Assembly: GCA_019828595.1 (NCBI GenBank)
Contig: JAHQRK010000011.1
Coordinates: forward strand, 868,001 to 932,000
Source: Aphanomyces cochlioides
Lineage: Eukaryota > Oomycota > Saprolegniomycetes > Saprolegniales > Verrucalvaceae
Direction: 5' to 3'
DNA length: 64,000 bases
Shown: piece after piece, positions 24,481 through 48,242 of the stretch
Position numbering within the stretch: the stretch's first letter is position 1
Layout: each line of letters starts with the position of its first letter
Notes under the pieces: generated by a model
Seen by the model: the letters and a program-made list of their open reading frames with translations, nothing else
Databases searched by the model: none
Told to the model about the DNA's origin: nothing
Made by a program: the position numbers and the translations under genes

Positions 24481-25153
24481 ATGGTGGACCCTCGCTTTGT
24501 GTTCCATGGCGCTTATGTTGGGTTTTGCGTAGATGACCGTCGTTGTTCCGCTTGTCGAGCTAATCTCCAACCGCCACCTTCCGCGGCGACGAATGCAGCC
24601 ACAGACCAAACAAACGACTTGACGAGCTTTATGAATCGACTTTTGCAAGTATGGGGCATTGATCCCGAGAATCCAACGTCCCAACCTGCAGCAGATGATG
24701 CGGGTATGTCCCTATGAGGGACATGACCCTCAGGTCGAAGCTCACTCGGGTCTTTTCTAGTCGCTCGGTTGAATATGTTTACTGCAGGTCAGGCAACCAC
24801 GACAGAGGTTGCGATGGTTGTGCGTGGCATCAAAGGAGAAGTATGCCAGACCACAAGTCCATACATTGCTACGCTCTCCTTAGGTGATTCTCATTCCAGC
24901 GGACTTTAACCCATGTGAGTCAATCGAGACCTGCCAACTCGCCTTGGCAGAACCTCTCCATGGCAATGCGCCTCTAGCAGCCTCTGTCAAGGACAAGGTG
25001 ATGATAACAGCTCTAATGTCTGTCGGCTAATGGAGGGCACTAGATTGTAGTGTTTGAACGAGGGGTGTGCACATTTGCCAGCAAAATCCAGCGAGCTCAG
25101 GATGCAGGCGCAAGAGCTGTCATCATCATCCAAACATGTGACGTTTGGCCGTA
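24481..25153 (+). pseudogene. PA-domain RING-H2 E3 ligase, 5' half (split by PLV)
   Basis: Exons 24481-24703, 24761-24840, 24884-24997 and 25044 onward, separated by short GT-AG introns. They encode a Cys-containing N-terminus, a linker, and a protease-associated domain: VILIPADFNPCES, then KIVVFERGVCTFASKIQRAQ and GARAVIIIQTCDVWP, the classic PA strand-helix pattern. The frame stops making sense exactly at 25153, where the PLV terminus begins. It continues, in the same codon, at 47776 with the last PA strands and the RING-H2 finger. The known architecture is PA-(TM)-RING (RNF13/GRAIL type), a ubiquitin ligase of the endomembrane system; no clear transmembrane helix is visible here. The insertion separates the substrate-facing PA part from the RING by 22.6 kb, so the gene is inactivated. 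The start Met is the first in frame; an earlier exon is possible. Confidence 0.85.
25148..25153. other. Target-site duplication GCCGTA (left)
   Basis: GCCGTA lies immediately left of the PLV terminus. The same hexamer lies immediately right of the other terminus (47770-47775), and its reverse complement borders the internal terminus copy (29558-29563). A 6-bp duplication is the Polinton/Maverick hallmark. Confidence 0.9.
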
Positions 25154-25371
25154 AGTAATAGCTACTAAAGGTATTTCGTAACCCAACCCCACAAAAACTA
25201 CAACGACAAGCAGCAACAATTATCCATCATGGTAATCAGATCATTTCACACCATCAAAAAGCATCTCCATAAGACATATGGACGCAATGCGGATCAGCAA
25301 GTACTTCTCAAGGGACAAAGTGCAACAAAAACCCAAAATACACACACCAAACGATCCAAAGTCAAAATACT
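25154..25371 (+). repeat. PLV left terminal repeat
   Basis: Starts with 5'-AG as Polinton TIRs do (AGTAATAGCTACTAAAGG). Matches the copy at 29564-29766 over about 0.2 kb at roughly 90% identity, with one indel of about 12-16 nt near 25255. It matches the 82-bp right end in inverted orientation. Confidence 0.88.
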
Positions 25372-25467
25372 CACCCCTCAGAGTATTTTGCATATCTCAA
25401 TTTAGTTATTAATTTAGTCTTGAATTATAAATCTTATAGTATAACAAGATTGGAAAATCAATAGCAA
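25372..25467. other. AT-rich leader after left TIR
   Basis: Non-coding; likely carries the promoter of the first small viral ORF. No specific motif is assigned. Confidence 0.4.
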
Positions 25468-25632
25468 ATGGCTCCACCAAAAAAATCACCAGAAGACAAA
25501 AAGCCAAGAGTTGAGGTAAATCATGACTACTATTACAATAATCAAAGGCATATCTTGAATAAAATCAATGCCCGGAATCGTTACAAAAAAGAAGTCAACC
25601 TATTCATGCATATTTGTGTTTCAGATATTTAA
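25468..25632 (+). CDS. Small PLV ORF, 54 aa
   Basis: An AT-rich frame right after the left TIR, starting MAPPKKSPEDKKPRVEV and rich in Lys, Asn and Tyr. Start context is AAATGG. No family recognised; the basic N-terminus could bind DNA. Codon use matches the viral genes, not the host. Confidence 0.45.
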   Translation: MAPPKKSPEDKKPRVEVNHDYYYNNQRHILNKINARNRYKKEVNLFMHICVSDI

Positions 25633-25766
25633 TAATTAACTACCGCAAGGTTAAAACAATGTCAGATTTCTATAAGATATCATTTTTTAAATCCACTAAT
25701 ATACATCTTCAAGAAAAACAATTTAATCTTGAAGTAATTTATATATACATATAGATCTGAAAAATA

Positions 25767-28541
25767 ATGTCTACCAAAACCAATAATGCTATCGAAGCAA
25801 CTAGAGCCAAATCAGTCATCTACTAACAAGCTAAAGCGCTAGGTCTTCCTGTATCGTGGAATATGAAAGCATCGCAAATTAAAGAAATTCTTAACCGCCC
25901 AAAATGTCAAGATGCTGCTCAAGTCAAAATTGCCTCGATTTATAAAATGTCTAAAGCTAAATCGCAACTAAATGACTTGAAAGCTCTAAAGAAAATTAAC
26001 AAATATCAAACAATAACCATCTTGCTTGATCAATTCAAACGTATTCGTCACAACATACACGCTCCAGCAGAAAAGAACCTTTTGGTTCATTTTCTTGATG
26101 ACGATGGCTCCACTCTTTGAACATATCATTTAAATTCCCATCAAGTAAGCATTGATGAGCTTTATGTCACAGCTCAAAATGAATTTACATCGGATGCAGA
26201 CGTTGATCTTCACATTTTACCTACGACAATGGTAACTTTAGAGTGGATTGAAGATCCCAAGCAATCCAGATCTTCGCGAAAAAACTTTTTTCGTTACATG
26301 ACGAAAGCTGACTACATGCTTGATCAATTTCAAGTGTATCCTCAATCACCAAACGGACTTCCTAAAGCATTTGAGATTCCATGCTTTTTGTATGCTCTTG
26401 AACAAGCCGGGGTCTCTAAAGTTGTTGTAAACAAGATTAAGCAAATCATGTTCCATTCAGGTATTACAACTAATTTGTTCAAAAAGATTGCGGAGAAGTT
26501 CAAATTGTGTTTAACTGTCAAGACGTATAAGAATAATGACGGAGTTAAAAGTTACAATATCAATAACTACGGTCCATATAGCAAGAACGTAAAAAAATTA
26601 GGTGTGACTCCAAAACATGGTTTTGCTATTAAGCAAACTAACATTACCTTGACTTCTCTTAACAATCCAGAACTTGTAAAACAAGAAGGATCAACTGAGT
26701 TCGTTCTTCATAATGGAAGAGTATCTTACAATTCCAAGCGAATCAAGTTTCTCGATAGTTTTGAAGTAATATCTCATCTACATCACAATAGAGATAAGTT
26801 ACTTATTCCTATTACACAAAGCAATGTTTCTAAACTACTCAACAATGAGTATCAAAAAGTTGATTCACTTTGCGAAGAAGACTTTGGTTATGATACTTTC
26901 AGAGAAATTGGCCGTGTCGACGGTAAAATGAAATTTGGTCAATCTCCGTTCAATCAAGTTATGAACAAATATAAAAAGCAATATGAAGAAATCATCAACT
27001 TCAACGTTATATATTTCGACTTTGAAACCCTTGTAACCAAAGAAGGCGAACACGTTGCCTACTGTATCTCTTATAAAATCCTAAAATACAAATTCAGAAA
27101 GTTGCATTCAACTGGAGATACACAATGTTTCTATGGATTTGATTGTGCAGAACGTTTCCTCGAAGCAATTCCAGAGAAGAGTCATAATTTGCTTTGGGCA
27201 CATAATGCTGGCTTTGATTTACGTTTTCTAATGAAACATGTAACTAGCTTTTCTCAAAAGTGCAACATTGTTGAATGTGGAACTCGTCTAAAACAAGCTC
27301 ATTGTTTTTATAAGAGTTCTGAGATTGTTATCAAGTGCACAATGAGTTTTATCAATAACAAACTAGCTAAATTACCGTCAATGTTCAAAGACGCGAGCGA
27401 AGGCCTTCACCTTGAAAAAGAATCATTTCCTCATGACTTGATCAATGAAAATAATTATAAATCTATGTGGAAACTTAGTGATATTGACTCTTTTGAAGAC
27501 AAAGATGCCATGATTGCTAATGCTACAAAGATTAATGCTATCAAAGATGACTTTATTGATATTCAGAAGTACGCTATTCATTACTGCAATCGTGACGTTG
27601 TTGTATTACATAAATGCTTTGAAGCTTTCCGAATGATGTTTATCAATTGCTTTAATATTGATGTATATCGCTTCATGTCTATGCCATCTATTGCTTATGC
27701 TATCCAACATAATCAAGGTTGCTTTGATGGATGTTTTGAACAAAATGGAACCGTACTTGGTTTCATCCGCCAAGCTATTGTTGGAGGACGTGTTATCACT
27801 AAAAATAACAAAAAACATCACGTGAAACATCAATTGGGAGATTTTGATGCAGTATCGCTTTATGCATCTGGCCAGTCGATATTACCTGGCTATGTAAAAG
27901 GTAAAGCAAAATTCTTTAAAGGAACTCTTCCAGAGAACGCTGATTATTACATTGCACGTGTTCGATTTGATTCAATCGGCAAACATCGCAACTTTCCTCT
28001 TTTGAGCATTCAACAAGATGGAACGCGTAATTTTACAAATAATATTGTTGGTGAAACGATGGTCATAGGAAAGCAGGCACTGGAAGATATTGCAGAATTT
28101 CAAGATGTTAAATACACAATAATTGAAGGATGTTATTGGGACGAAGGTTTTAACTCTCGAATCGTAGATATAGTTAAAGAATTGTTTGAAGAGCGCCTCA
28201 AATTGAAGAAGGAAGGCAATCCTCTGCAAGAAGGCATCAAGTTACTACTCAATAGCGCTTATGGAAAATTGATTCAAAAGCCAATCGTAAAAGAAAAGTT
28301 GCTCGTGAAAGGAGCTGACAAAATCAAAGAGCATACACAAAAGAAGATTCACAAGATGATTTCGAGAACTCCAATCACTGATGATTTGGCTTTATTTGAA
28401 GAGCACAAGTATCTTTATGAACATTACTCGCCAGCACATCTTTGAGTTCAGATTCTTGATTCCTCCAAACACATTATGAATGAAGTTATGTGTCTTGCTG
28501 AAGACATTGAAGCAAATATTTGGTATCATGACACTGACTCT
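25767..28541 (+). pseudogene. polB: PLV protein-primed DNA polymerase B, N-terminal part
   Basis: One long frame broken by in-frame TAA (25824), TGA (26118) and TGA (28443); the same frame continues through all three. Motifs in order: Exo I in NVIYFDFETL, Exo II in WAHNAGFDLRFL, Exo III in YCNRDVVVL, Pol A in GDFDAVSLYAS, Pol B in LLLNSAYGKL, and Pol C in YHDTDS at about 28523-28540. These are the 3'-5' exonuclease and palm residues of family B polymerases of the protein-primed (Polinton, adenovirus) branch. The long N-terminal extension is typical of Polintons/PLVs. Immediately after the DTDS aspartates the sequence changes to the inverted host p24 gene (from 28542). The missing thumb-side C-terminus is on the minus strand at 44397-41627. 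As it stands the gene cannot make a complete enzyme. Confidence 0.92.
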
Positions 28542-29085
28542 GATTTCGCAAACGTTAAACGAGAAAGGCGCGATTGCGTTTACAACGACGAAATCTGGTG
28601 AACATTGGGCTTGTATTAGCATCGATACGAACAAGTATGTCGTGCCTGACACGACTAAAATGGTATGTCTCAAACCATGGACGCAGTTTTTCACATATGG
28701 GACAGAAATTTAAGCTCAAACTGCGCTTTGGAGCAAGCAACGAAGAATATGCCAACTTGGCAAAGAAGGAACAAATGAACGAACTTGAGTTAGAAGTTAT
28801 GAAGCTCCGCGATCGTGTCAAAGCGATTCAAAAACAACAAGACTATGCTCAAGTACCTCTACCATGTACTCAGGGGCACTCATATTGTCGTAGGAAAAGG
28901 GCGACAAGTTCCGATCGTCGAGCGAAAACAACTCGCGTGCCATGTGGGTCTCTGTCATCCAGGTTTGAATCCATTTTTGCTCTATGATATCTGATGGATT
29001 GATGTAGATTGTTGTGTTGCTCGTCGCAGGCATTTGGCAAGTGCATCATTTGCAAACGTACTTTCAAAAGAAGAAGTTAGTCTAA
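28542..29085 (+). pseudogene. Inverted partial copy of the p24 (TMED) gene
   Basis: Matches the 3' five-sixths of the intact p24 gene at 48785-48239 in inverted orientation, introns included. It starts inside the GOLD domain ([20 protein letters not shown]) fused to the polymerase break, then the coiled coil ([19 protein letters not shown]) and the final membrane helix with a KKLV end. It lacks the signal-peptide exon and the exon-2 part of the GOLD domain. One codon (3 nt) is missing relative to the intact gene. A broken host copy, not a viral gene. Confidence 0.9.
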
Positions 29086-29111
29086 GAGAAGTTGAACGAT
29101 GGCTTGCATCA

Positions 29112-29557
29112 TTATGACATCCACTCGCTCCAGAGAAAGTCGCCATTCAGTTGTGCACTTGTTGCTTGGGGATTCTTGGCAGGAATCTCCACACGACAGA
29201 TGGGACAGCTATTGCGAATTTTGAGCCATTGCTTGATGCACTCCGTGTGAAAGACATGCTATGACATCCACCAGTCAGTTAGAGCTCATGGGATGCAGCC
29301 ATATACCTGGCAAGGCATTCGAACGACTTCAGCGCCAACTTCGACATCAACTTGGCAAATAACGCACTCGCGGGCATTCTTGCGCACATCAATGTTTGCT
29401 TCGGCATCCGAATGGTCTTGAATGTATCTCAATAGCCTGAAAAGCAACATGAAGACGTTGTTCGGCCACAGAAATGTACCCATGGCCCTGAGATTTCGAG
29501 ATCATCAAGGCTGGAATACTCAGTCCAACGCCTTCGCCCTTGGAGTCTGTCATCATG
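29112..29557 (-). pseudogene. Inverted copy of the RING-H2 exons of the PA-RING gene
   Basis: Duplicate of 47776-48242. It contains the end of the PA domain (GVGLSIPALMISKSQGHG), the RING-H2 first half (CVICQVDVEVGAEVVRMPC), the same intron, then [12 protein letters not shown] and [12 protein letters not shown]. Near its 3' end it has a 9-nt insertion relative to the intact copy, which brings a TAA directly after SEWMS, so the last residues differ and the overlap with the p24 stop is lost. It abuts the reverse-complement target duplication TACGGC and a PLV terminus. Confidence 0.88.
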
Positions 29558-29563
29558 TACGGC
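29558..29563. other. Target-site duplication copy (TACGGC = reverse of GCCGTA)
   Basis: Borders the internal PLV terminus at 29564. It identifies this end as the former right end of the element, now inverted. Confidence 0.85.
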
Positions 29564-29766
29564 AGTAATAGCTACTAAAGGTATTTCGTAACCCAACCCC
29601 AAAAAAACTACAACGACAAGCAGCATCAGTTATTCATCATGGTAATCAGATCATTTCACACCATCCATAAGACATATGGGCGCAATGCGGACCAGCAAGT
29701 ACTTCGCAAGGGACAAAGAGCAATAAAACCCAAATTACACACGCCAAACGATCAAAAGTCAAAATG
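29564..29766 (+). repeat. PLV terminal repeat, full length, internal (former right TIR)
   Basis: Same start as the left TIR and about 90% identical to it over about 0.2 kb. Its first 82 bp are identical to the right end at 47769-47688. In the un-inverted order this is the right TIR of the virus. A weaker partial echo (ACTTCTCAAGGGACAAA) occurs at about 29.83 kb. Confidence 0.85.
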
Positions 29767-29883
29767 TATTAGAGTTATGCATCTGAATCGTAATTAGAAT
29801 CTGAGTCGTCAGAAGCATCTGAAAGCAACAATTACTTCTCAAGGGACAAAACACAAAATACACATTGCGGCGGCAGCGGGTGG

Positions 29884-30840
29884 TTATTGAAGTGCAACCG
29901 TAAGTGGAGCATAAAGATCAATATCCAATTGAGGTGGAAAGTTGGGTGGCAAAGGACTGGTTGCAGGTAGCTGCAGAACTAGACGCGAATCCAATTGTAT
30001 GACAGTGTTGGGCGGGGCAATCGGAAGAGGGATCATTTCCGGCAATTGGACGCCATGATGAACAAAGTGCATCACTTTGTAGGACGGATTGTGAGGGTCC
30101 AATTTAATACAGATGATGTAAACCACAGTGTCTAACATTGCCCACTGGTTGGCCTTCCAATCAAGATTGGCCCAACTCTGGGACCACGCCACTTCCCATT
30201 TCACAGTGTGGAAGTTGCCCCAATCGTCGAGACCAGGAGGCAACTGAACGTTGTTTGGAGGCTGTGCAAGGACTCGACGGGGTATAAGACACAAATCTGG
30301 CTCGAGGCGACGGATATTGGTTTGATACGCATCTAAGGAAATCTCTACAAAGTCATCTTGAGTGTGGGTAGCATTATTGATAGCGCCCCAGAATGTCCCC
30401 ACATATGTTGCATGTTATCGAGACGGCAATTCAACAATGAAAATCTTCCCATCGATCCATTCTATGTTTTTCGACTTGAGTTGCTGGTCTTCGCTCGTAA
30501 CAAAGGCTTCCCAATCACTTAGGGAAGCATCTCCCAAGTACACCATTCCCTTTTCGAGCTCTTTCTCCACGAGCTTCCAGTCGAGAGATTTGATCTTCTG
30601 ATTGATCGAATGGATTGCCATCAACTCACCTTGATTTGGTTCTGGAATGGCCGCAGTGGGTGCTGGAACGATCATTGTGTTCCAAGATTGCTTTTCTTCA
30701 ATTCGAGGTTGCTTCGAATCAGTTGGTGTCGCGCTGTTGTTGTTTCGACTTCTCTTGGGGTTGCCTTCTTCGACTGTTGCACTGCTACGTTTGAGACCCT
30801 GTGCAGAGGGAACGCTGTCGTCGCCACGGACTGCGTCCAT
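29884..30840 (-). pseudogene. PLV cargo or captured host gene; nuclear-type unknown protein
   Basis: A single frame from 30840 to 29884 interrupted by one in-frame TAA at 30417-30415. N-terminal part: Ser/Thr/Asn-rich with NLS-like KRSS and GNPKRSRNNN. C-terminal part: FIVELPS, TYVGTFWGAINNATH, RRLEPDLCLIPRRVL and a Pro-rich end. The ELPS/RRLEPD pattern is faintly reminiscent of Uma2-like PD-(D/E)XK nucleases, but I cannot place the catalytic residues, so no function is assigned. Base composition is visibly richer in GC than the rest of the virus. Placed next to the TIR, it looks like a passenger gene taken from a cellular genome. Confidence 0.5.
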
Positions 30841-30899
30841 TCTGTGTCGGAAGTGCTAAAGCGAAAGTGAAGCCGCTGCTTCAATCTGGCACACTTTCA

Positions 30900-31262
30900 C
30901 CGGATAATAAATAATAGTATACGGATGTTCAATCTATTCAAAAAGAATGAATGCTGCTGTGATTGCCGCGTCGGATCACCGAATTTGACGCAAGTAGTCT
31001 TAACGTCGTTTAAAAAGAACAAGAATATTGATGTCAGTCTTGAATGAAAAATAGAACATATCAAAATGGCGGTAATCTAATTTTACTCCAATCGTTATGA
31101 ATTAATTTATAGAGAACTTGATAAACTCAATTCACTTGAATTATTATAGGAAAATGCAGCATTTTGGCAAACAAAACCCAAACTCACGAGAATATGAAAT
31201 TATACAGTTTATATATTTAATTAATTATAAAAATACCTATCCCCTATAGAATATATTAAAAA
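30900..31262. other. Non-coding AT-rich gap
   Basis: No gene seen. The segment just before 31263 (CCCCTATAGAATATATTAAA) may hold the promoter of the next ORF. Confidence 0.4.
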
Positions 31263-31571
31263 ATGGAATTAAATTTCGGAAAATACAAAACTAAGTCTAT
31301 TCAAGAAGTTCTTGAAATTGACCAAAATTACTGTAAATGGTTATTAAATCAGGATATGTTATTATCAAATAAACCTGAAATTAAATCATATTTAACTGAA
31401 AAATTAAAGGATGCTGATTTATCGTATAAAATGCGATGGGGTAAGCATAATGGGTTAAATTTGAATAAAATCAAAGAAATCGATCCAAATTATATTAAAT
31501 GGCTAAGAAGTAATGAATATGTGAAAGACAATTGCCCAAAATTATTATCTGAGCTTGAAGCGTTAAAATAA
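31263..31571 (+). CDS. ExoX C-terminal-like (DUF3820-type) tandem repeat protein
   Basis: 102 aa, made of two copies of the same short module: LNFGKYKTKSIQEVLEIDQN followed by YCKWLLNQ, then MRWGKHNGLNLNKIKEIDPN followed by YIKWL. The (F/W)GK(Y/H) ... DPxYxKWL pattern is that found at the C-terminus of exodeoxyribonuclease X-like proteins and in many small viral proteins, probably a nucleic-acid or protein docking module. No nuclease domain is present. The frame is intact and ends two bases before the convergent protease gene. Confidence 0.7.
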   Translation: MELNFGKYKTKSIQEVLEIDQNYCKWLLNQDMLLSNKPEIKSYLTEKLKDADLSYKMRWGKHNGLNLNKIKEIDPNYIKWLRSNEYVKDNCPKLLSELEALK

Positions 31572-31572
31572 A

Positions 31573-31989
31573 TTATTCGAAATCACGATTGCTTAAATCG
31601 TGAAAATGGTCAAATATATCCATTCTATTATTCTGTTGTGCGTATAAAAATAATATACAATAAATTCCGCAATATTCTCTATACGTTGATTGATATTGTT
31701 TTTGGTTATATTTTTTTATTCCCAATATTAATGGAGCTGGTTCACCCATACTATCGAAAAATTCGTCGTGATAAACACACACCCAATGGCCGACATTACT
31801 AGCATCTGATCTTAATAAAATTAAGTAATTTGTATTTTTTGGTAATGGCTTTTCTATTTCATCCAAATCAAATATTCCATCTAATTTAATATCCAATAAA
31901 TTAGCTAATTGAATTAGCTGATGATCACTCGTAATTCCTTTTATCAGCTCCATTAAATAATTTAAAAATAGTCTAATCTGTGGCTGCAT
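31573..31989 (-). CDS. Adenain/Ulp1-like cysteine protease (virion maturation)
   Basis: Read from the Met at 31989 (MQPQIRLFLNYLMEL); a longer frame reaches 32067 but would overlap the capsid gene. Catalytic pattern of the C48/C5 families: His in VGHWVCVYH, acidic residue in FFDSMG, and QSTYREYCGIYCILFL with the nucleophile in the CGxYC turn. Polintons and adenoviruses use such a protease to process virion proteins, often at GG motifs; the candidate virion proteins at 38.4-40.0 kb contain several GG/GXG sites. Divergently paired with the major capsid gene (starts 17 nt apart). Intact. Confidence 0.82.
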   Translation of the reverse strand: MQPQIRLFLNYLMELIKGITSDHQLIQLANLLDIKLDGIFDLDEIEKPLPKNTNYLILLRSDASNVGHWVCVYHDEFFDSMGEPAPLILGIKKYNQKQYQSTYREYCGIYCILFLYAQQNNRMDIFDHFHDLSNRDFE

Positions 31990-32006
31990 ACAATTAATAA
32001 AATATA

Positions 32007-33765
32007 ATGAGTGAGTATCAATTAGCCGATCAATTTTTATATGACAGCTCTTTAAAGAGCGAACCATCTACTTCCGTTTCTAAAGGAAAACGAATGGTAC
32101 AAGTTCCAGATGTAAACCAAGGCAGTTATCAGTCTGGTATTATTTCCATTGATGCCGCAACGAGTCTTCAAGGGGCTAAAGGATTTGCTTCTTTAAAAGA
32201 TGCTTATATTACCTACCGTATATCGTCTCAATGAAAAATACTGGTGCTGGTACATTTGGTGCTATTAACCGTTATTGCACAGCTTTAAAAGCCGGAGTAT
32301 GGAATATCATTGACTCTATGACCGTAGAGCTCAATAGTCAAACTATCATTACTGAATCGGATTTCAAACTTTATTGGAATAATCTTCGTGCAATGACTGA
32401 ATGGAGTACTTCTGACCTCAATAAACATGGTTCTGATGTTTTTATGAGCGCAGATGATTGGACTTCTATGTCGTTTTCTGGGGCTTCTTTATCAGGCGAT
32501 GGATTCACGAACAATTTCACAAATTGCACTGCAACCTTGGGAACAGTTCCAACTGAGGCATCGTTGAAAGAAAATAATGGATTCATATCTCGTATTTATG
32601 GCAATCCGCAACTTACAGCAAACATTGACGCATTAGGAAATGTTACTGGAGGAGTCAATGCGTATAATTGGGTTACCCAACGATCTGCGGTAGCATCAAC
32701 CATTGCGGCTCAAAATGGTAAAGGAGCTGTTGTCCTAAATACTACCCCAGTGGCTGGCTCTGTTCTTGGTGTATGGCATCATGTGTTAAAAATTTGTCTC
32801 GTTGATCTTTATCCAATTTTCAAAGAATTAGACCTAATTGGAAATCCTCAACTTAAACTACGTCTTAAGGTCAATGTTGGTTACTGTGATATTGCAGTTG
32901 TTGCTGGTGCTGCTGGTAGTCTAACTTTAACCTCTACAACTATGACAAGTGGTAATACCGTACCAATTATGTTGGCCTCTGCTGCTGCAGGAAATGCTCT
33001 TGAAAATTTTAATACTGGAGCAACTACGGTTCGTTTAGCATTTGGTCCACTTCAGAACAATATCACCACGTTAGCTCAAGCTGGTCAGTTCCTTCCATTC
33101 TCGACGGCCCGATTAAATATTCCATATTATGATATTGCTAATCCATTACCGATTGTCAGCCATCCTGTGAAGAGTGTGAAATATCTTGATTGTTATGCTC
33201 AATATTTCCGAGGAAAAGCTGGCACTGGCGCTTTGCCTTCTGCCCAACAAAATATTACATTCAATCTTCAATTATCTGGATCTTGGAAAAATATCAAATA
33301 TGTTTGCTTACTCCCATTCAGTGAAACATCAAGTGGACACTTCGCGAATGCGTCGGCTAATGGCGTTGAACAATTCCAAAGCCCATTTGATAGCGCGCCA
33401 TGGACTTGTCAAGCAGGTAGCTCAATTCGTAGCTTTCAAGTTCAAGTTGGAAATGATAACGTATTTAGCAAAACATTGGATTACGATTTTGAAGCTTGGA
33501 ATGACGAATTTAAGAAACTTGGAGCGATCAATGGTGGCCTTACCCACGAAATTTCAATGGTTTGATTGATTTTCAAAAGTGGCAAACGGTACAACGTATT
33601 ATGGTTGCCGATTGCTCTCGTATTACAAATCAAGACGTTCCTCAATCTGTTATCGTAAGCGGTGTCAATGCTTGCTGTCAAGGTATGAATGCTTTAGTAT
33701 TTGTTGTATATGAACGAGAGCTTTCGATTGATCGCTTAACTGGTGAAATTCATCATTGGACGTAA
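32007..33765 (+). pseudogene. mcp: Major capsid protein (double jelly-roll), two frameshifts
   Basis: About 580 residues in three frames. Segment 1 (32007-32234) opens MSEYQLADQFLYDS; segment 2 (32231-33565) holds most of both jelly rolls (WNIIDSMTVELNSQTII, KICLVDLYPIFKELDLIGN, FLPFSTARLNIPYYDIANPL, YFRGKAGTGALPS); segment 3 (33562-33765) holds the C-terminal strands (NALVFVVYERELSIDRLTGE). The layout fits PLV major capsid proteins, the hexon of an icosahedral virion. Each break is repaired by adding one base, at CAATGA (about 32231) and at ATGGTTTGA (about 33563). The first break produces an ATGA stop-start overlap that mimics translational coupling. Either early pseudogenisation or single-base assembly errors. 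Confidence 0.85.
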
Positions 33766-33835
33766 AAAAAGAAATACCAAGCGACCTTGGAATTGCTGTC
33801 TTCATTTCTTTATGTTTAATCCTCATCCCTAGGTG

Positions 33836-38334: not shown

Positions 38335-38406
38335 AGTGTATATGCTGTAGGCTATATATATGAATTTTAAAGCTTATGATCAAACGTAAAGGGGTATTTT
38401 TATGCC

Positions 38407-38880
38407 CTACAACTTGAAGCTACCTCCACGTTTCTTTGAACGAACAGCAGCCATACGGTCTTTAGCAGCTTGAGAACCTTTAAAACCAATGCCGCTAAGA
38501 TTACGAATACCTTCTCGCAAGCCAGCTAACTCAGGGTTACTATAAGCGACAGCGTCCCCAACCCCACTTAGAACAGGTTTAATCACGCTATTCCAAGCCG
38601 TGCTTAAACCACTCTTGATTGAATCCCACAAGGAACCACCTTGATGATAACCTAAATCGTGTTGAATTTCACCGTGAGTAAAATCTAATCTAGCGCCTTT
38701 ACCAGCCTTCTGAGCCGTAACAATTTTGCTATAGTTGGAAGGATGAACTAGCATTGGTGTATCACCGATAAGATCATCTTTTGAAAACACTACGGTTCCT
38801 CCTTTTGATGCCTTCGCAAGCTTACTTTTTGAAATTTTTGACGATACATGAACTACTTTATAACCTCCCGTTCCTTTCAT
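38407..38880 (-). CDS. Candidate minor virion protein (amphipathic, GG-containing)
   Basis: 157 aa, intact. N-terminal basic region (KISKSKLAKASKGGTVVFSK), an LDFTHGEIQHDLGYHQGGSLW motif, then an amphipathic stretch WDSIKSGLSTAWNSVIKPVL and a basic Gly-rich C-terminus (SKKRGGSFKL). Size, GG sites near the helix and location in the structural block resemble adenovirus pVI-like or other cement/membrane-active proteins cleaved by the viral protease. No homology can be asserted. Confidence 0.5.
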   Translation of the reverse strand: MKGTGGYKVVHVSSKISKSKLAKASKGGTVVFSKDDLIGDTPMLVHPSNYSKIVTAQKAGKGARLDFTHGEIQHDLGYHQGGSLWDSIKSGLSTAWNSVIKPVLSGVGDAVAYSNPELAGLREGIRNLSGIGFKGSQAAKDRMAAVRSKKRGGSFKL

Positions 38881-39010
38881 ACTTCTTTGATTTACACGAA
38901 TTATATTCTATGTATTACATAAAATTAAAAAAATAATTATTATATTACTAAGATAGGGTCGGAAGCTTATCTTCCGACTACGTCTACAGATAACCTTTCT
39001 CTATATTCTT

Positions 39011-39214
39011 TTAAAGAGCAAACGTTTTTGCTTTCTCTAATTTCTTTTTTCGCTTATATTCATCATTACTTGGCCCATATCTCTGAAAATTGGTATTTGG
39101 CTCAGTTTTATCTATCACTAAGTTTTCCATTGTTTCAATCAATTTCTCCTCATTTTCCTTAGCCTTCTGATTGTATTTTTTCATAAACGGACTTCTAACA
39201 TTGAATATTTTCAT
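39011..39214 (-). CDS. Small charged PLV protein
   Basis: 67 aa, Lys/Glu/Asn-rich (MKKYNQKAKENEEKLIETME), no known domain. AT-rich codons like its neighbours. Confidence 0.4.
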   Translation of the reverse strand: MKIFNVRSPFMKKYNQKAKENEEKLIETMENLVIDKTEPNTNFQRYGPSNDEYKRKKKLEKAKTFAL

Positions 39215-39244
39215 TTTATTTGATTACAGATAAACATTTTGTTC

Positions 39245-40451
39245 CTATATAGTGAGCTTCAAAATATCATTAAATTGTTTTTCATTTAAAACCACATTTT
39301 GAAATAAGTGAATTGACATCTTCTTTAATTCTGATTTTACTGTTGGACTATCATTTCCTACCTTAAGTTCTCCAATTAGCTTATTAAACTCAGCAGCATA
39401 TTTATCACTATTCGCACGAGGATCTGTAATTGTTTCCTTGAATGAATTAAGTAATTTACAAACTTTCAGCGTATCGTAAAAGATTATTTTATCAGCATTA
39501 TCTAGCTGATTGTAAAGACTATGGTCAATAACTCCATCAAAAATCAGGATTTTGATGATTTGAATTAATTTTTGAGACATTTTCAATCTTTTGAAACAAG
39601 AATTTCCAGATGGATGTCTTAAACTTAGATATCCTTGACCAAGAGCTTTAAGATTAACATATTTAGAACCAAGAGGCCGATATAAATATTCTCTTTCAAA
39701 ATTATGTATATGTGAAATTCCAGCTCCAACTAAGCCTCTTCCAATTAGTTTTTTGCGTGTAATTAACTTAAATCCTTGTCCTTCCATTTTAACATTTGAT
39801 TCGTCTTTAACATCAGGTTCATCTTTAACTGTCATTTGAGTAATGCCTCGTTGGAGAGCATTTAATCGTCTATTTTCATCAATAATTTTGTCAATTTTTT
39901 CTTTTGTAGCAATCCAATCATAATCAGCTACACGCTTATTCTTATTTTTATTGCCACTACCCATAGTAAATAGCTTTGCTGTTCGCCCCAAATATACACT
40001 CGTATCTTCAGAGGCTGTTAGTAATATCGGAGAAATCTTTCTTGTTCTAAAAAAGTGCCAATTTGATTTGTAAAGTTGTATAATTCAGCAAGCTTATTTG
40101 AATCTTTTGAAGTTTGATTGTATTGGGTCTCTTCTTCATCATCGCTGCTTGATAATAGCCCGTAGCGATTTCTTGTTGTTAAAGGCGGTGTGAGATCACT
40201 TAATGTTATTTTTTTGCTTTTGGTTTAGTTTGAGTTTCAATAGTTCTAGCCTCCGACGAGTTGGTTTGAGTTTCATTTGAAGTCATCTGAGGTTTCGGTA
40301 AAATCATATTTGATGCAATATCGCTACTCCAAATAGCATTTTCATATGCCTTTTGTTTAATGGCATCAATCTTTTGATCAAACTTGATTTGATCATAGTA
40401 TTTTTGTAACTTTTGTTTCTTATCAGCTAGATCCTTATAGCTTGGATACAT
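39245..40451 (-). pseudogene. PLV protein of unknown function, probably one frameshifted gene
   Basis: Three consecutive frames read as one protein of about 400 residues. 40451-40206: MYPSYKDLADKKQKLQKYYD, helical, ending in Lys-rich KAKK. Then, after a 1-nt shift in an A-run, LTPPLTTRNRYGLLSSSDDE and an LYNFTNQIGTFLEQERF segment (stop at 40018). Then, after another shift, 39991-39245: a basic region, LIGRGLVGAGISHIHNFERE, YLYRPLGSKYVNLKALGQGY and LSLRHPSGN, then a helical C-terminus. I do not recognise the family. The conserved-looking LGSKYVNL/LSLRHPSGN core and its place between integrase and virion genes suggest a structural or assembly role. It could also be two genes. Confidence 0.5.
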
Positions 40452-40489
40452 TTTACTACGAATTAATTAGTGTATATATATTTCATAGT

Positions 40490-41619
40490 TTATTGTAAAT
40501 CCTTAAAATAATTATTCTCTAATTGACTCATTTGACTCTTATTAAATATTCTTAAATTGTTTTGTGTTTCCCATGTTTCATCACCTTCAGCCCGCCTTAC
40601 AAGATACTTATATTTTCCATTCTTGAGCTTTTTGTGATCCAAAATCTTTTCTGCTTCATATATATTGCCTTCGGCAACTGGCAATCTACGATTGCCTCTA
40701 TCATTTGCTTTCCCATTGACATCTGTAGTTTGTGCTTGTACTATTTTAGCATCATTAACTGCTTTATAAACAACATGATTGTTCTTTGAACGTAAATGCA
40801 TCTTTAGACCATGTAACCCTACAAATTCGTATACTGATTTGGAATATTTTGCACCTTCTTTTTCAAATGGAGTCTTTGGTTTCAATTTGTAACGTACTGT
40901 TGAACTAATGGGTATGTTATTCAAAACTTGCTTAGCTACATTTTGGTTATGTTCATTTTCAGAAAACACAACTTTTCCATTCATTTCGTTTGGTGTCTTA
41001 TGAAGAGATGAGTGTTCTGTGTCATTATAGTTGGCAATTGCATCGTTGAGATGCTTTTGAGTTAGAACATTGAATATACCATTGTCATGCATTTTAGTTA
41101 ATCTTCCTTTCAACGTTCTAATAAAGCGATCTATCTTTCCTAAGATAGTATGATCACCAGATTCACCTGCGTAGTGACCTATACGCTCTTTTGTTATCAA
41201 TTCTTGAACCTGTTTATTCATGAACTCTGATCCATTGTCTGATGTTAGTGAATGCGTTTTATGTATAGCTATAAATTCGTTTAACGCTTTTTTCACTACT
41301 GGTGCAGTTTTGTTTTTTTAACAGTTTAGCATACCCAATTCGACTGTTAATATTGATTGCAATAAATATTGGCTTCTTCTTCCAGAATGCTAAATCTATC
41401 TGCCATGAATTAGGATTATTACTTGAGATTTTAAACTCAGGAAACTTCTTGGTTTGTGTAGAGTGCTGCTGAATTTCAGTTTGCTTTTTGTACCAGTCGC
41501 GAACATGTTTTAATGTTATAGAACTGTTTATTGCTTTTGCTTTTTTATACAAAGCTTTAGCACTAATAAATAAATCCAGTCTTTGGCGAAAAATATAGCT
41601 GATTAAATAAATGTTCCAT
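40490..41619 (-). pseudogene. int: rve-type integrase with chromodomain, frameshifted
   Basis: Start at 41619 (MEHLFNQLYFSPKTGFI), a 1-nt shift near 41565, then YKKAKAINSSITLKHVRDWY and the first catalytic Asp in SWQIDLAFW. A second shift occurs in an A7 run at about 41317-41323. Then SLTSDNGSEF (second Asp) and ILGKIDRFIRTLKGRL, where the third acidic residue is Asp rather than the usual Glu. The C-terminus is a chromodomain: IYEAEKILDHKK, YKYLVRR, ETWETQNNL. This is the Polinton integrase that inserts the linear genome with 6-bp target duplication. A 43-nt palindromic repeat lies in frame immediately before the chromodomain. Confidence 0.87.
40660..40702 (-). repeat. 43-nt palindromic repeat, copy 2 (in-frame in integrase)
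   Basis: Same block as 36877-36919 (4 mismatches, opposite strand). Translated as part of the linker RGNRRLPVAEGNIYE between the integrase core and the chromodomain. Confidence 0.75.
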
Positions 41620-41626
41620 TATATAC

Positions 41627-41690
41627 TTATTGAAATGATACTTTTCTCATAAACTTCAATCTTTTCGTTACTTTCTGTGTTTTAGTGTTA
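41627..41690 (-). pseudogene. polB: PLV polymerase, extreme C-terminus
   Basis: After the Harbinger insertion the polymerase frame resumes as NTKTQKVTKRLKFMRKVSFQ and stops at 41627, eight bases before the integrase start. Assigned by position and frame: it continues the piece at 44041-44397 when the transposon is removed. Confidence 0.6.
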
Positions 41691-41856
41691 ATAGAGACTT
41701 TTCGAAGACTTGTCGAGTTTGAGTTTGAGACAGAATGCACATGCTTTGGCATGAGTCAAGAAATAGAACTCAACAACAAAAGAGTGGTGTTTCGAAAGAA
41801 TTCAGTTTGAGATGGAATTGCATTCTTGATTTCTTGCACCCTCGCGCCAAACAGAC

Positions 41857-42672
41857 ATGGCTGAAGCCTCTCATGAAAACGCAATCGATAAGACGTCCAC
41901 GCGGCGAACATTTACGGCCGGCGACGACATCATTCTTCTCATGGTGATGATGTTCTAGATGTACGATGCTATAAACTTTTAGGCTGTGAACAACGCTCAA
42001 GTCTGGGCATGTGCTCCGCGAACGGTTATGAAGGTTTGGGATGGCATTGCCGACAAAGTCAATGGCACCCCAAACGTCACTGTTGCAGGAAAGAACGGAC
42101 CTGCGTACAAGACTCGATTTGAAGGAATGATGAAGTCGTTTTTGGCATCCGAATCAAAGTCGAGACGCCAGTCTGGGACAACCGAGGAGTATAACACAAA
42201 AGACCAACTTCTCACAGACATTCATCAGCAAATGCAAGATCACACGGAGGAGCAAGACAAAAATAAGCAGGTAAACAAGCGTAGAGTAGATGCTCTTGAG
42301 GCATCGGGAGCGACCATGAGACGAAAAGCTATGGAGGAATCTGAATCGTCTACGAGTAGTGATGTAAGCAGTCTATCTTCGTCCAACCATGTTTACAACT
42401 TGATCATAGGACGAGCAACAGAGACTGCCAAAAAGAAAAGACAGACCAAGCGCACAAAGCGGGAGCAATTATCCGCGATGATGGATTCAATTGCTTCCGC
42501 TGTTGGTTCAATGGAAGCTCCACCAGATAGTTCGTCCATGCTACTCGACTATTTAAAACACCGTGATGCCCAAGAGGCAGAACGTGAAGAACGTCGCATC
42601 GCACTTGAAAATGCAAGGGAAAAACGAAATCAAGATTTTTTGCTGGCAATTATCAACTCTCTACCGCGTTGA
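41857..42672 (+). CDS. Harbinger Myb/SANT-like accessory protein
   Basis: Two exons (41857-41943 and 41983-42672) across a 39-nt GT-AG intron. The N-terminus reads RRTFTAGDDIILLMAVNNAQ followed by VWACAPRTVMKVWDGIADKV, a trihelical Myb/SANT-like DNA-binding domain. Then a long charged, Ser-rich linker with basic clusters (KKKRQTKRTKREQ) and a helical C-terminus. In PIF/Harbinger elements this protein binds the transposon ends and helps import the transposase. Intact. Confidence 0.83.
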
Positions 42673-42690
42673 CGAACATAGTCAGCAAGA

Positions 42691-43921
42691 TTATACGTTC
42701 GAGTTCAAATAGCCACTTAGTGTGGGTGGCTTCATATCAAAATACATCGCGATTTGATTTCCATGCGGTTGCAGACAGCAGTGGCAATTTGACAAAAGCA
42801 CGGCAGTGCTAAATATCTTTCCAATTGGCGCCTCGCATGCTTTTTGCTTCTTATCAAAATTGATGAAAGGCCAAAGCACTTTAATTCGACCAAATCCCCA
42901 TTCCACGCTCTCTCGAACAAAGCTCATCCTTGCATTAAACTTGGCTTCTCGTGAACCAGGGGAAGCATTGCTAAAAGGGCAGACTATATAGTCACTGCAT
43001 GAATATGCAGGATCGCCATAGACGACTGCTCCTTGAAATGTGTCATCTGCACGAAATTCATTCTGAAGTCCGCTTCTTGCCAACACAGTACTGTCGTGTC
43101 TTCTTCCCTCTACGGGTCCAAAAATTGATGTCATGATTCCGTCGGGACTGGTAATCCCTTGCCAATTGAAACAGTGGCGTCTGGGATGGCCATTGTAAAC
43201 AGATCGTTGCAAATTCTCATTTTCATGACGGGGATTTTTGCGAGCTGTGGGTCGTGAAATGAATTGCTTGGTTCCTATTAAATATACCACGTCAGCAGAC
43301 GATGTTTAGTTCGCACGGACCATCTATGAATCCCCAACACTTTGCCAATCGAACACCTTTTGCCTTGACCGCAGCACAATATTCGGGCATTCGTTGTTGT
43401 ATAAGAGTCTTGTTCAAGTACAACAAATTAGCGTGCTTTGAGTGCAAAAGACGTATAGTGTGCAGGAAAATCCTCGAATACGAGGCCACTGATCGCCCGA
43501 ATTCATTTGCAACTGTAAATAGCTTGGATGGTTCGGACAACCTTCTACACACGATGGCGATAGCTTCGATCCTTGAGACGTTATCTCCACTGGGGGTAAC
43601 CACGCAAGGATCCAAGCCAAGTTTGATCGATAATTCGTCCAACTGAGCAACGGTAAAGCGGTATCTCTCAACTGCAGTAGCATCATCGAGATGTATATCG
43701 AAGGAATTGGAGAAGTCAATTCTTGGGAGCCCTCGTGTGAGACGAAACAGCTTGTTTTCCTCCATAGCCTTGAGCAGATGTATGAAGCGTCGGGTGCTAC
43801 CTCCAGACAAGAGGTATAGCTGCAGCACGAAGAGCATTGCTTCCATGGGTCCCAGTTTTGGCGCAACAAAAGCCATCGAATGTCTCCTTTCCTGAGTCAA
43901 ATTTGCTTTGAGTTGAACCAC
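42691..43921 (-). CDS. PIF/Harbinger transposase (DDE_Tnp_4)
   Basis: Exons 43921-43321 and 43274-42691; removing the intron 43320-43275 joins CWGFIDG to TKQFISRPTARKN. Catalytic residues: first Asp in GFIDG, second in VVYGDPAYS, Glu in VRESVEWGFGRIK. The N-terminal half has the helical PIF domain (AIVCRRLSEPSKLFTVANEF). About 395 residues, normal for the family. No stop or shift, so the element may have been active recently, in contrast to the decayed virus around it. Confidence 0.87.
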
Positions 43922-44040
43922 AATTTAACTCAACAAAAACAGGCGTTTGTTCTCAACAAAAAACATATGATATATTTTGTCCAATCAAAATCGATCCTGT
44001 TGTCAAAGTTAAACTCAACAAATTTTCGAAAAGGCTCTAT

Positions 44041-44397
44041 TAGAGCCTTTTCGATTGAGCAACATTGAGCTAGATCAAATTCCATTGACTCGCCGTCGAA
44101 TAATTTCAAATAGGCCTCATATGGATTTTGCTGTAACAGTGCTCCTGGAAAACCTTTCATGCGGATGAGATGCCCCTCAACATCATTGCCTTCGCATGCT
44201 AGAACATCCAAGTAGCTCTTCTTCCCTAGAAAGATAGACTCTTTAGCAAAGACTTCTCCTTTTGATCCTTCAAGTTCAAAATCACTGTGAAATTGGCCCA
44301 TTTGCTTTCCAATAAGCTCTCGTCCATATTTGTCACGGAATGCATCAGCAAGTTTAGATATTGCATCACGATCACTGTAAGCGTCAGAAGGGAGTCA
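44041..44397 (-). pseudogene. polB: PLV polymerase, C-terminal part (inverted)
   Basis: Begins at the TGACTC hexamer (44397-44392) with DSLL, then one frame change, then DRDAISKLADAFRDKYGREL, IGKQMGQFHSDFELEG, AKESIFLGKKSYLD and HLIRMKGFPGALL, the region that follows motif C in Polinton polymerases (KKxY and RMKG are characteristic). It ends ALIEP at the Harbinger boundary. The matching N-terminal part is on the other strand ending at 28540 with the same hexamer. Confidence 0.82.
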
Positions 44398-44631
44398 ACC
44401 CCCCCCTGGATAGATCGTACCTGTCTGGTAGCCCAATGCCTTGGCAACACATATAGTCAACCAGGAGATCACGTGGACATTGTGTGTGGGGTGGAGTCGA
44501 CCGAGTTTGTGTGTGTTACTGTAGACTGCTTTCCCCATGAATAGTTGGCCCTCTCAATGAAGCCTGCATTTCGTGGAAGCACGTCAATACGTCTCAATCG
44601 ATTGAGTTTACACACTGGGTTGTTTTATCAT
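44398..44631. other. Junction region, polymerase fragment to FYVE copy G
   Basis: Contains a G/C homopolymer run (CCCCCCCC at about 44400) directly at the rearrangement junction. No gene supported. Confidence 0.45.
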
Positions 44632-46145
44632 CTAATAGAGGAGCAGCATATCTCCTCGTCGACGAGGTGTCGCCTCGACTGGGGTACCAAAGTAGTTTGC
44701 TGTCCGACTGATGTTGGTGTCACTGACATCGAAGGCACCGCCTTCCCCAGCGTCATAAATAAACGAGGCGTTGGATTCAGACAGCATGTCGTCGTCACGC
44801 TCGATGGGATCATTGCATTCCTTGAAGATTTTCGTGATGTCAATGCTTGACAGTGTCAAGATATCGTCGCTCGAATGATTTGAGAACATCTCGGAATCCG
44901 TCGACATTGTCAAGGAGGTCTGAGGCTTCTTTGACATTTTTGAGTAGGATGGGTTGGATGACCCCAACGACGCCGACATGTCCTCTCGGAGAGCCTTATT
45001 CATCGGCGTGGACAATGGCATCTCCTGCTTGACTTCGTTCGGTCCTGGGATGCAACGACTGCACACACGAAGATCAACGAGAATATTGGCCATCATCAAT
45101 TTATACGTTGCACTGCACACCTTGCTGCAAACGACCTAGGAAGTTCCCCATGAGTCTCTAAGGAGTGTGGAAGAGCTTACCTCGCCACATCGACGACAAT
45201 TGGTTTTCCGAGAGAATGTGCCGAATTTCTTGAGGCACACGGCGCACTTCGTCCGTGTGTGCTTGCCGACTAGATTGGATGGCGGCAAGTAGGAAACCTT
45301 GCAAAGTCGATGCGCGTAAACGTTGGTTTGCATCGAGTTCATGGAATTGTACTGACTTTCGGCAAAACTTGTCATGAGCATCGCGCCGATCACGTCGCCA
45401 GTCACTCGTCCGTTCGGAGAAAAGTGCTCTAGTTCCGTCACGCGCAGGATACCAGGCCTGTCGGTCTCCATGTAGATGAATCCAGAATGGATAAACTCGG
45501 CGCGGATGATGCCATACTTCTTTTCAAGATCAGGGCAAGCTGGAAGGACTATGGACTTGCAAGCACGAATCCATGCCTTCTTGCCATCGATTTCAACGTC
45601 TTCAAGATGCTACCAAGGGGACATAAGCCATGGATCAATCGAGAGCATGTACCTCAATACTGCAGAAGTCTCGGTATCGCACAATAAGTCCTTGAAGAGG
45701 CGATCGCATGACGGTCCAACTGACGGACGAAAGGTGATGCGGTCGATCTTCCGTCGGCGTTGACAATGTGTAGAGTCGAACTTCATCGAGAACGTCTGGA
45801 AAGTACGAAGAGTCGACTCGACGGACGTCGGATGTTGTGGGTGCTGTGAAGCTTCGTCCAGCGTCGACTCGATCTCAGTCGTGCCCAGGAAGAGCGGCAA
45901 GTTCCCTTCGCGGGCAGTGTACACTTGAACCTTATCATCGTTGGTGCGGAGCGTCCACTCGATTGGCCCACCCGTCAACTTGGTGTACTCGAGCTAGACA
46001 AACGCGTAAGTCACTTGGAGGTTCATGACAGCTTCACCAAGTCGCGTTGAGCTTTGTAACCAATTGCTCGGAGCTCTTCAATCTTGTCTGGCGAGAGCGG
46101 CGGTGTGCTGAAGAAGTCGTCAGGGACTGGCGTCTTGAATGACAT
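44632..46145 (-). pseudogene. START-FYVE protein copy G, frameshifted
   Basis: A more divergent member of the family. Start 46145 (MSFKTPVPDDFFSTPPLS); exon 2 has YTKLTGGPIEWTLRTNDDKV and IESTLDE, then shifts frame at about 45850, where paralogues have about 10 more bases (LDEIRAIFT), and continues as TAPTTSDVRR and GLIVRYRDFCSIEV; exon 3 has SIVLPACPDLEKKYGIIRAE, ETDRPGILRVTELEHFSPNG and the FYVE half CAVCLKKFGTFSRKTNCRRC; exon 4 has VVCSKVCSATYK, CSRC and an acidic tail. Apart from the one shift it is complete. It lies inside the outer PLV boundaries, so it must have been brought in by the rearrangement. Confidence 0.78.
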
Positions 46146-46522
46146 TTTCTCGCGGGCCTGTCAAATTCAAAATGGTGGGAACACCATGTGTCAAGTCCAC
46201 ACGACAGTTGTCAAGCGCTGCTTTCCGTCGTCATTATTCCACGAACGACCAAATTTCATCCACCCTATCACCTCTGCGACAGAGGTCGAGCATTGGGTCA
46301 GTCCACTTTGTCGTTGACGAGCATGAGGATGATTAGACGCAGCAGCACGAGTTGTTTCCACGAGAGCTCGCTTTGCCGACAGTCGAAAAGTCTGTCTCGG
46401 TATGACCAAGCCATCTTCTTGTCAAGAGTGCGATTCTAAACCGTGGTAAAGTCATCGCTGCGGTGGCAATCCTGTCGCTTTTCCCGATGTAGTCTCGACA
46501 GAACTCTCGAGACTGGGGACGG

Positions 46523-46781
46523 ATAAAGGCACCACCCCAGTACTTAAATAAGAAACATATGTTGCTTTTGTGTGCCTAGGAGCCTAAACAAGAGTGCGTT
46601 GCAGTTGAACAGGGTAGACGTACATACTGCTCTGCCGTGGCGAAGGACGTGCCAGGCTCAGGAGCTGCTTGGCGGCGCAGTTTCAGCTGGCACGAGCATA
46701 CCCTGAGGAGATTTACCCTAAACATTTCCTTATTTAAGTACCGGGGTGGTGCCGCTAACCTCCTGGGGTGGTGCCTTTATC
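46523..46781. mobile_element. Small MITE-like palindromic element
   Basis: A perfect 17-bp inverted repeat (GATAAAGGCACCACCCC) closes both ends. A second inverted pair sits inside (AGTACTTAAATAAG against CTTATTTAAGTACC). About 259 bp, no ORF, no clear target duplication. Confidence 0.6.
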
Positions 46782-47379
46782 ACTTCCCCGCTGGCACGAC
46801 CACGCTCACCCGTTCTTACAGTCCTATTCGCCACGATGTGGACGCAATGCCATTCCCTATCGATCGTAGAAGCAAGCGATGGTTGTCATTGACACATTCC
46901 CGCCTTTGTCTCGAATGTGGTCGATATCATGCTCCAATGGGGCTGCGGGAGACAAGGGCAGATGGATGGTTCCAGTGAGTTTGTTGGGCAAACCAAGCAG
47001 ATGATCTTCCATCTAGTCCGTCAGATGTTAGACTCCCCACATTGTCGATAAAACACTTTCGTCTCGAATTCATGCCACCAAGTGCATGACTTTGAGTACT
47101 TCATACCAACTCCATGAAGGGGAAAGGACCAAAGGAGACCTCTATTGAATTCATACCTCGTCTGGTGCTGCAACTTATCGGTGGAGCACAGAGTGTCAAA
47201 GTCTGTGAAGTTCGATAGCATGACCCCATCCGCAGACTATCGTGGAGAAACATGAACCCCAACTGAGAGCCGAGGGAGGTTGGTTTGATTGTCGTGGGGA
47301 TTATCAAAGTATAACTTCTAGTCCCTTGTTTGTGTCGCTCTGCCATGGGGAATGTCAAGTCGCTGGCTGTCACGTTGGA

Positions 47380-47687
47380 TCACGAGCCACTGATATCAAA
47401 GACACCGCCGTCCTCGACGTCATAAATGACAGACTCTTCCGAGTCTGACCACGCGTCGTCGTCACGCTCGACAGAGCGATTGCATTCCTCGAGGTCGACA
47501 AAGATCTTGCTGCAATCCATACCTGAAAATGCAAACCCATCGTCGCCAGAGTGCTCTGACAGGGATCTTGGATGGATTGGTGGCGACGACAAGCTCAGCG
47601 GGTCCTTTGAAGATGTGTAGTACGTCGGGTTGGACGACCCTGACGACGACGACATGTCTTCTCGCAGTGCTTTTGTCATTGGCGTGG
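47380..47687 (-). pseudogene. START-FYVE C-terminal fragment, copy H
   Basis: Encodes only the acidic tail of a paralogue of copy G: TPMTKALREDMSSSSGSSNP, HSGDDGFAFSGMDCSKIF, ECNRSVERDDDAW and VFDIS, aligning with TPMNKALREDMSASLGSSNP of copy G. The upstream exons (START, FYVE) are absent because at 47687/47688 the sequence passes directly into the PLV terminus. The join falls in ATGGTAA, which also occurs in the TIR, so microhomology is possible. Confidence 0.8.
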
Positions 47688-47769
47688 TTACCATGATGAA
47701 TAACTGATGCTGCTTGTCGTTGTAGTTTTTTTGGGGTTGGGTTACGAAATACCTTTAGTAGCTATTACT
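47688..47769 (-). repeat. PLV right terminus, truncated to 82 bp
   Basis: Inverted relative to the left TIR and identical to the first 82 bp of the copy at 29564. Ends GCTATTACT, followed by GCCGTA. The inner part of the TIR is replaced by FYVE copy H. Confidence 0.88.
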
Positions 47770-47775
47770 GCCGTA
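47770..47775. other. Target-site duplication GCCGTA (right)
   Basis: Matches 25148-25153. Using one copy of the hexamer, the PA-RING reading frame is restored across the insertion. Confidence 0.9.
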
Positions 47776-48242
47776 CATGATGACAGACTCCAAGGGCGAA
47801 GGCGTTGGACTGAGTATTCCAGCCTTGATGATCTCGAAATCTCAGGGCCATGGGTACATTTCTGTGGCCGAACAACGTCTTCATGTTGCTTTTCAGGCTA
47901 TTGAGATACATTCAAGACCATTCGGATGCCGAAGCAAACATTGATGTGCGCAAGAATGCCCGCGAGTGCGTTATTTGCCAAGTTGATGTCGAAGTTGGCG
48001 CTGAAGTCGTTCGAATGCCTTGCCAGGTATATGGCTGCATCCCATGAGCTCTAACTGACTGGTGGATGTCATAGCATGTCTTTCACACGGAGTGCATCAA
48101 GCAATGGCTCAAAATTCGCAATAGCTGTCCCATCTGTCGTGTGGAGATTCCTGCCAAGAATCCCCAAGCAACAAGTGCACAACTGAATGGCGACTTTCTC
48201 TGGAGCGAGTGGATGTGCAAGCCATCGTTCAACTTCTCTTAG
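47776..48242 (+). pseudogene. PA-domain RING-H2 E3 ligase, 3' half
   Basis: Continues the PA domain interrupted at 25153: YMMTDSKGEGVGLSIPALMI, exon end 47853, 43-nt intron, exon 47897-48026 (NARECVICQVDVEVGAEVVR, MPCQ), intron, exon 48075-48242 ([24 protein letters not shown]). The ring ligands C-C-C-H-H-C-C-C are complete (CVIC, PC-Q-H, FHTEC, CPIC), so this half is an intact RING-H2. It may still be transcribed from a promoter in or near the virus, but it lacks its substrate-facing domain. The stop codon overlaps the stop of the convergent p24 gene by 4 bp. Confidence 0.87.

Follow-up and report, generated by a model that had tools for sequence, protein, structure and literature searches.

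How was a conserved PA-RING ubiquitin-ligase gene of the oomycete Aphanomyces cochlioides cut in two, and what lies between its halves? The locus is found in a stretch of 64,000 nucleotides of contig JAHQRK010000011.1 (assembly GCA_019828595.1), referred to here as the window, and positions given without a contig name are counted from its first letter. It shows legibly how a eukaryotic DNA virus broke a host gene that is conserved and apparently present in one copy, and since the target scar, sibling elements and orthologues are all at hand, the sequence of events can be reconstructed. An earlier note had described a textbook integration of a Polinton-like virus with a 6-bp target duplication. 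The duplication has withstood comparison with sibling elements (three of three), in-frame rejoining of the host exons and orthologues whose sequence continues across the site. The textbook character has not, as the interval holds an inverted block, a backward half gene, host-cluster DNA, a DNA transposon and a duplicate, truncated right end (Table 1). What stands of the earlier interpretation is therefore an insertion into a PA-RING gene with target duplication, and what falls is the clean provirus. An intact provirus cannot, in this sense, be taken as proved when the outer ends match and the target site is duplicated.

Table 1. Features of the interrupted PA-RING locus, in window coordinates.
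Feature	Position	Strand	Details
PA-RING gene, 5' half	24366..25153	+	Open frame, GT-AG introns, P0001/P0002 matches; exons 24366-24380, 24432-24483, 24533-24703, 24761-24840, 24884-24997, 25044-25153
Target duplication GCCGTA, left copy	25148..25153	+	
Left TIR	25154..25368	+	215 bp
Virus part in original orientation	25154..28540	+	Sibling alignment
DNA polymerase B ORF	26229..28445	+	PF03175, E 2.1e-26; stops early at 28445
Inverted block in full, compared with siblings	28542..44374	-	
Backward host right flank	28542..29563	-	Half GOLD gene, PA-RING 3' exons, hexamer 29558-29563
Original right-end TIR, now internal and inverted	29564..29765	+	202 bp, 88% to left TIR
Major capsid protein gene	32007..33565	+	Two frames (32007-32234, 32231-33565)
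Fibre-like ORF	33836..35218	-	Peptidase_S74 chaperone domain
Packaging ATPase (Pox_A32, A32-like)	36198..36878	+	PF04665, E 2.8e-6
rve integrase with chromodomain	40490..41618	-	Two frames (40490-41317, 41259-41618)
Nested DNA transposon	41693..44050	.	DDE_Tnp_4 domain; missing from siblings at that place
Filler, FYVE-gene-cluster-like	44377..47687	.	3.3 kb
Right TIR stump	47688..47769	-	82 bp (82-85); duplicate of 29564-29645
Target duplication GCCGTA, right copy	47770..47775	+	
PA-RING gene, 3' half, in place	47776..48241	+	Exons 47776-47853, 47897-48026, 48075-48241
Neighbouring GOLD (emp24/p24) gene, part common to inverted copy	48337..48785	-	PF01105, E 2.5e-7 for 48337-48753

The model of the PA-RING gene starts at about 24366 and not at 24481, with two short introns (24381-24431 and 24484-24532) that leave the upstream frame open and matching P0002. 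As claimed earlier, the PA frame breaks at 25153 and resumes within the same codon at 47776. The divided host codon is TA/C, with TA ending at 25153 and C at 47776, and when the exons are joined over the insertion site the frame runs DVWP/Y and on through the three 3' exons. In the interrupted gene, the last two bases of the hexamer and the first viral base form a TAA stop (25152-25154), so that the 5' half ends at DVWP. The in-place 3' half has lost the original stop through a 9-bp difference; a backward copy of this half, described below, keeps the stop directly after EWMS, the same as in P0001. An in-frame ATG is located one base past the target hexamer in the orphan RING half. As a whole, the gene is almost certainly inactive. 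A GTAAGT donor look-alike, formed by the target duplication plus the TIR, occurs at 25151. That the virus is spliced out as a single giant intron has been considered and rejected, with two acceptor candidates, worked by hand, failing to restore the frame.

The joined protein has its best relative in Aphanomyces euteiches P0001 (292 aa, 93% identity at 97% query coverage), which represents a cluster of 11 sequences and spans the insertion point without a gap, in line with the alignment to oomycete PA-RING proteins that the earlier note had proposed. Among 35 homologues listed in the joined-protein search, 31 have PA and RING Pfam domains together, so that the two parts are not always separate genes, and an oomycete orthologue group exists in which both lie in one reading frame. 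Genome searches detected no second PA-RING copy or empty allele in the assembly. Among 66 match rows to P0001 in the species' own genome, those outside the locus are 27-52% identical, and the 454 bp preceding the insertion site match themselves alone. In A. stellatus and A. astaci, matches to two genes of the window, the PA-RING gene and the one at 49472-50461, are found on equal-sized contigs (19159 and 1517454 bp, respectively), which suggests that the neighbourhood of the two genes is conserved in these species. A second A. euteiches sequence, P0002 (the public A. euteiches 201684P gene model), loses the frame within its PA region (...KHLTFGP/FMISK) and gives no PA domain match, probably owing to an annotation splicing error.

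Signs of decay in the host gene have also been considered. P0001 and the window copy differ in 13 substitution columns among 283 aligned, of which eight look derived in the window copy, four in P0001 and one is undecided; three of the four P0001-derived columns fall in a poorly aligning stretch. Four changes of the window copy affect positions that are invariant or nearly so among 28 other homologues (23/23 of those with a residue, 27/27, 25/28 and 28/28). These substitutions would fit a loss of constraint, with which the sequence is compatible and which it does not prove.

The scar itself agrees with what had been claimed. The same GCCGTA hexamer is present on both sides of the interval, and the ends are of the AG...CT type, with AGTAAT as the first bases of the element at 25154 and ATTACT as the last, up to 47769. 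The chance of a hexamer being common to two random host positions is 3.6e-4. Flush 6-bp duplications have been found in three of three other copies with both ends intact, namely CACGTT (C20), CATGCC (C5) and CTCTAG (C7), a fourth paired copy (C50) having been left out of this count with its right terminus lost. This indicates that the 6-bp duplication is a property of this virus family. TIRs with AG...CT ends, a feature of Polintons, are likewise shared, the 215-bp pairs being 99.5% alike in C20 and 98% in C7, against an outer right TIR of 82-85 bp in the window. A TIR query gave 16 genome matches, three of them within the window element. Taken together, an insertion of a known kind can be asserted with high confidence. 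The TIR pair of C5 is also unequal (84%); TIR divergence therefore gives no insertion date, and dating from the 88% pair of the window has been rejected.

With regard to gene content, the element encodes a family B DNA polymerase of organellar/viral type, as expected of Polintons. An rve integrase core is found in a sibling and, in part, in the window. In the 371-aa ORF of C20, the rve domain (PF00665) is matched at E 4.8e-6 and 27.2 bits, under the curated value of 32.6, against E 1.1e-3 in one of the two window frames and no match in the other; the chromodomain match of the window integrase falls below its cut-off. The capsid ORF has no Pfam match. The 559-aa ORF of C20, folded with 28 relatives (pLDDT 83), gave a model whose best PDB match is the mavirus major capsid protein (6g44, E 3.6e-13), followed by other double-jelly-roll capsids including PRD1 P3 and PBCV-1 (modest TM-scores, 0.27-0.49 overall), which points to a predicted double-jelly-roll major capsid protein of the Polinton kind. 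Candidate minor capsid and protease ORFs (39245-39964 and 31573-32067) had no Pfam match at 0.01. The early end of the polymerase and the division of the capsid and integrase genes over two frames each indicate that the window virus copy is defective.

Relatives of this virus occur both within the genome and beyond it. Among the best 120 of at least 171 capsid matches, the nearest are ena/jgi entries (89% and 74%), with Aphanomyces, Thraustotheca, Phytophthora and Lagenidium among the further ones. A capsid search of the genome returned 63 match rows, 13 of which score 876.0-877.9 bits in 587-aa open frames with no stops, at 89% to the window virus; these near-identical rows apparently represent a young virus subfamily. 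On C7, a 4.6-kb element (C7:1278139-1282740) bearing the same 215-bp TIRs (98%) and the CTCTAG duplication is probably a short non-autonomous relative. A family copy on C78 (C78:636499-640933) has part of itself inverted about 16 kb away (C78:656779-661205), with a 99% match over 1.9 kb that starts 109 bp outside the virus match and with the capsid pieces mirrored; the flank C78:653000-656799 is duplicated at C78:1311188-1315300.

Comparison with the sibling elements has revealed that the interior of the window element is not in its parental order, which was inferred from copies at other loci. In the siblings on C20, C5, C78 and C50, window positions 25154-28540 are followed by 9 bp, by 44374 to 44051, by 41692 to 29564 and by the TIR, with 28540 joined to 44374 via the same 9 bp. 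The fifth sibling (C3:661k) carries a deletion, through which 28387 adjoins 41276, and has the same relative orientation as the others. Counting blocks of at least 150 bp and leaving out TIR cross-matches, the polymerase part runs in one direction in five of five siblings and the rest of the element in the other, without exception in C20, C5, C78 and C3; in C50, which is itself partly rearranged, 8,097 of 9,747 bp have the expected opposite direction and 1,650 do not. This opposite orientation of the two parts in the siblings identifies 28542-44374 as an inverted block.

The first 1,022 bp of the block derive from the right-hand flank of the host. The stretch 28542-29648 repeats 47685-48785 in inverted orientation (98.6%), the duplication being made up of 82 bp of TIR and 1,016 bp of flank and ending at 48785. 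As the flank has been copied backwards, the RING half is present twice, in opposite directions. This flank is found twice in the genome, both times at the window locus, and the sequence right of 48785 is found once. Between the two copies of the flank there are two substitutions and two indels, of 9 and 3 bp, a further mismatch at 47687 being accounted for by the filler. DNA that was once single-copy is thus duplicated in inverted orientation at the two block ends (47688-48785 and 28542-29645), a feature of staggered breaks, and the inversion breaks lie in the polymerase gene and in the GOLD gene. A separate 773-bp inverted repeat (52191-52963 and 55358-56130, 99.6%, 2.4 kb apart) is present in the right-hand host DNA.

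Between the block and the right TIR stump lies the filler, which resembles a host FYVE gene cluster at C3:1022315-1028311, on the same contig and about 110 kb off. Its first part is 97% identical to C3:1022315-1024133 and most of it is 93% identical to C3:1025257-1028311; the exact source was not found in the genome search, with the nearest relatives at 93-97%, a wider difference than that between the two flank copies and a point against the account preferred below. Of the three seams, one contains a single extra base, another two and the last none. Within the filler, a MITE-like repeat (46515-46792) has inverted arms, a length of about 260 bp and more than 20 other genome matches. Direct repeats at 4483-8342 and 15020-20364 of the window, mostly 71-76% identical, are kin to the same filler-like FYVE gene family.

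These observations make it very probable that insertion of a Polinton-like virus was followed by a local inversion that duplicated a stretch of about 1.1 kb in inverted orientation. The main rival for the structure accepts the insertion and attributes the inversion, the inverted duplication and the filler to an assembly error that joined haplotypes or repeats wrongly. The seams (28541, 44375 and 47687) are known from one assembly, the virus copies are many and similar, inviting misjoins (63 capsid rows), and the duplicated stretch is nearly identical. Nonetheless, the assembly would have to contain three separate wrong joins, two of which would fall in single-copy or non-viral DNA, and the indels and substitutions between the flank copies indicate that neither is a technical copy, although two haplotypes could still differ in this way; an error of this kind is considered unlikely. 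Two adjoining virus insertions (25154-28540 and 29564-47769) separated by a host fragment would agree with the TIRs at 25154 and 29564 pointing the same way. This reading is very improbable, given that the two pieces are complementary and together form one sibling-like element, and that the fragment between them is a backward copy of the far flank, which two insertions do not produce. A single clean provirus from 25154 to 47769 with nothing rearranged is scarcely credible, since its matching outer hexamers and inverted termini are set against an inverted RING half inside, an order opposite to that of five siblings, host-cluster DNA and a right TIR of 82 bp, and it is contradicted by both the window sequence and the sibling copies.

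On the preferred account of insertion followed by inversion, a Polinton-like virus with an rve integrase evidently entered the PA-domain exon of the single-copy PA/RING gene and duplicated GCCGTA. A DNA transposon evidently also entered the virus at some time, and its entry would take the next place in the order. The chromosome would then have broken once in the virus near the end of the polymerase gene and again at the right border, this second break having an offset of about 1.1 kb that reached from 82 bp within the right TIR as far as the middle of the GOLD gene. The intervening piece would have been rejoined backwards, so that the offset stretch came to lie on either side with its two copies facing opposite ways, and FYVE-cluster-like DNA of 3.3 kb would have been pasted into one junction, the seams being suggestive of end joining. 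The insertion came before the inversion, because the inverted copy contains the TIR and the hexamer, and the low divergence between the two copies of the stretch suggests that the inversion is comparatively recent. Staggered breaks with end joining are judged a reasonably probable mechanism, with template switching during replication as an alternative for the mechanism and not for the structure. Recombination between the two TIRs has been rejected by reasoning, as such an event would turn the element round in its entirety and leave no duplication.

The locus is more intricate than the earlier note described, and somewhat more interesting, because an inverted duplication lies at the virus border and C78 offers a possible second case. 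With these two, the question whether Polinton-like viruses, once integrated, destabilise the surrounding DNA becomes open to test. As a speculative extension with little probability, integrated Polinton-like viruses of this genome may provoke local inversions and inverted duplications of host DNA through ends nicked or replicated in place, and, given the in-frame ATG after the hexamer, the two facing RING-only modules could be expressed from the viral ends. The evidence bearing on such provocation consists of one offset break 82 bp inside a TIR, with C78 as a possible second case.

Literature searches combining Aphanomyces euteiches with Polinton found nothing, and those combining Polinton with inverted duplication found nothing pertinent by title or abstract. 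Known systems nonetheless offer points of comparison. In the available text of two studies, oomycete Polinton-like elements are placed in the Gossevirus group, some elements of which possess an rve integrase with pPolB and 5-7 bp duplications, and oomycete capsids are reported within this (GKS1) group (PMC7805220; PMC10120064). As far as these portions describe the group, the window virus resembles it in its oomycete host, the joint presence of polymerase B and rve integrase, the TIRs and the short target duplications, and its putative membership is inferred from host and gene content. It differs in that the window copy is frame-broken, inverted inside, accompanied by host and transposon DNA and located in a host coding exon. 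Mavirus and the Maverick-Polinton elements share its gene kinds (rve integrase, PolB and A32-like ATPase) and the capsid fold modelled for the sibling; mavirus is nevertheless a separate lineage, with about 10% identity and a TM-score of 0.42-0.45 over the capsid alignment.

For the rearrangement, the closest comparison is with Drosophila, where, according to the available portion of the source, inversions by staggered single-strand breaks with end joining leave inverted duplications of formerly single-copy DNA (PMC3355041). The likeness lies in single-copy DNA inverted at the segment ends, about 1 kb in one Drosophila case (PMC3355041). Unlike these inversions, the breaks in the window fall in an integrated virus and across a TIR/host border, and the rearrangement includes an extra 3.3-kb filler and an inverted block of 15.8 kb.
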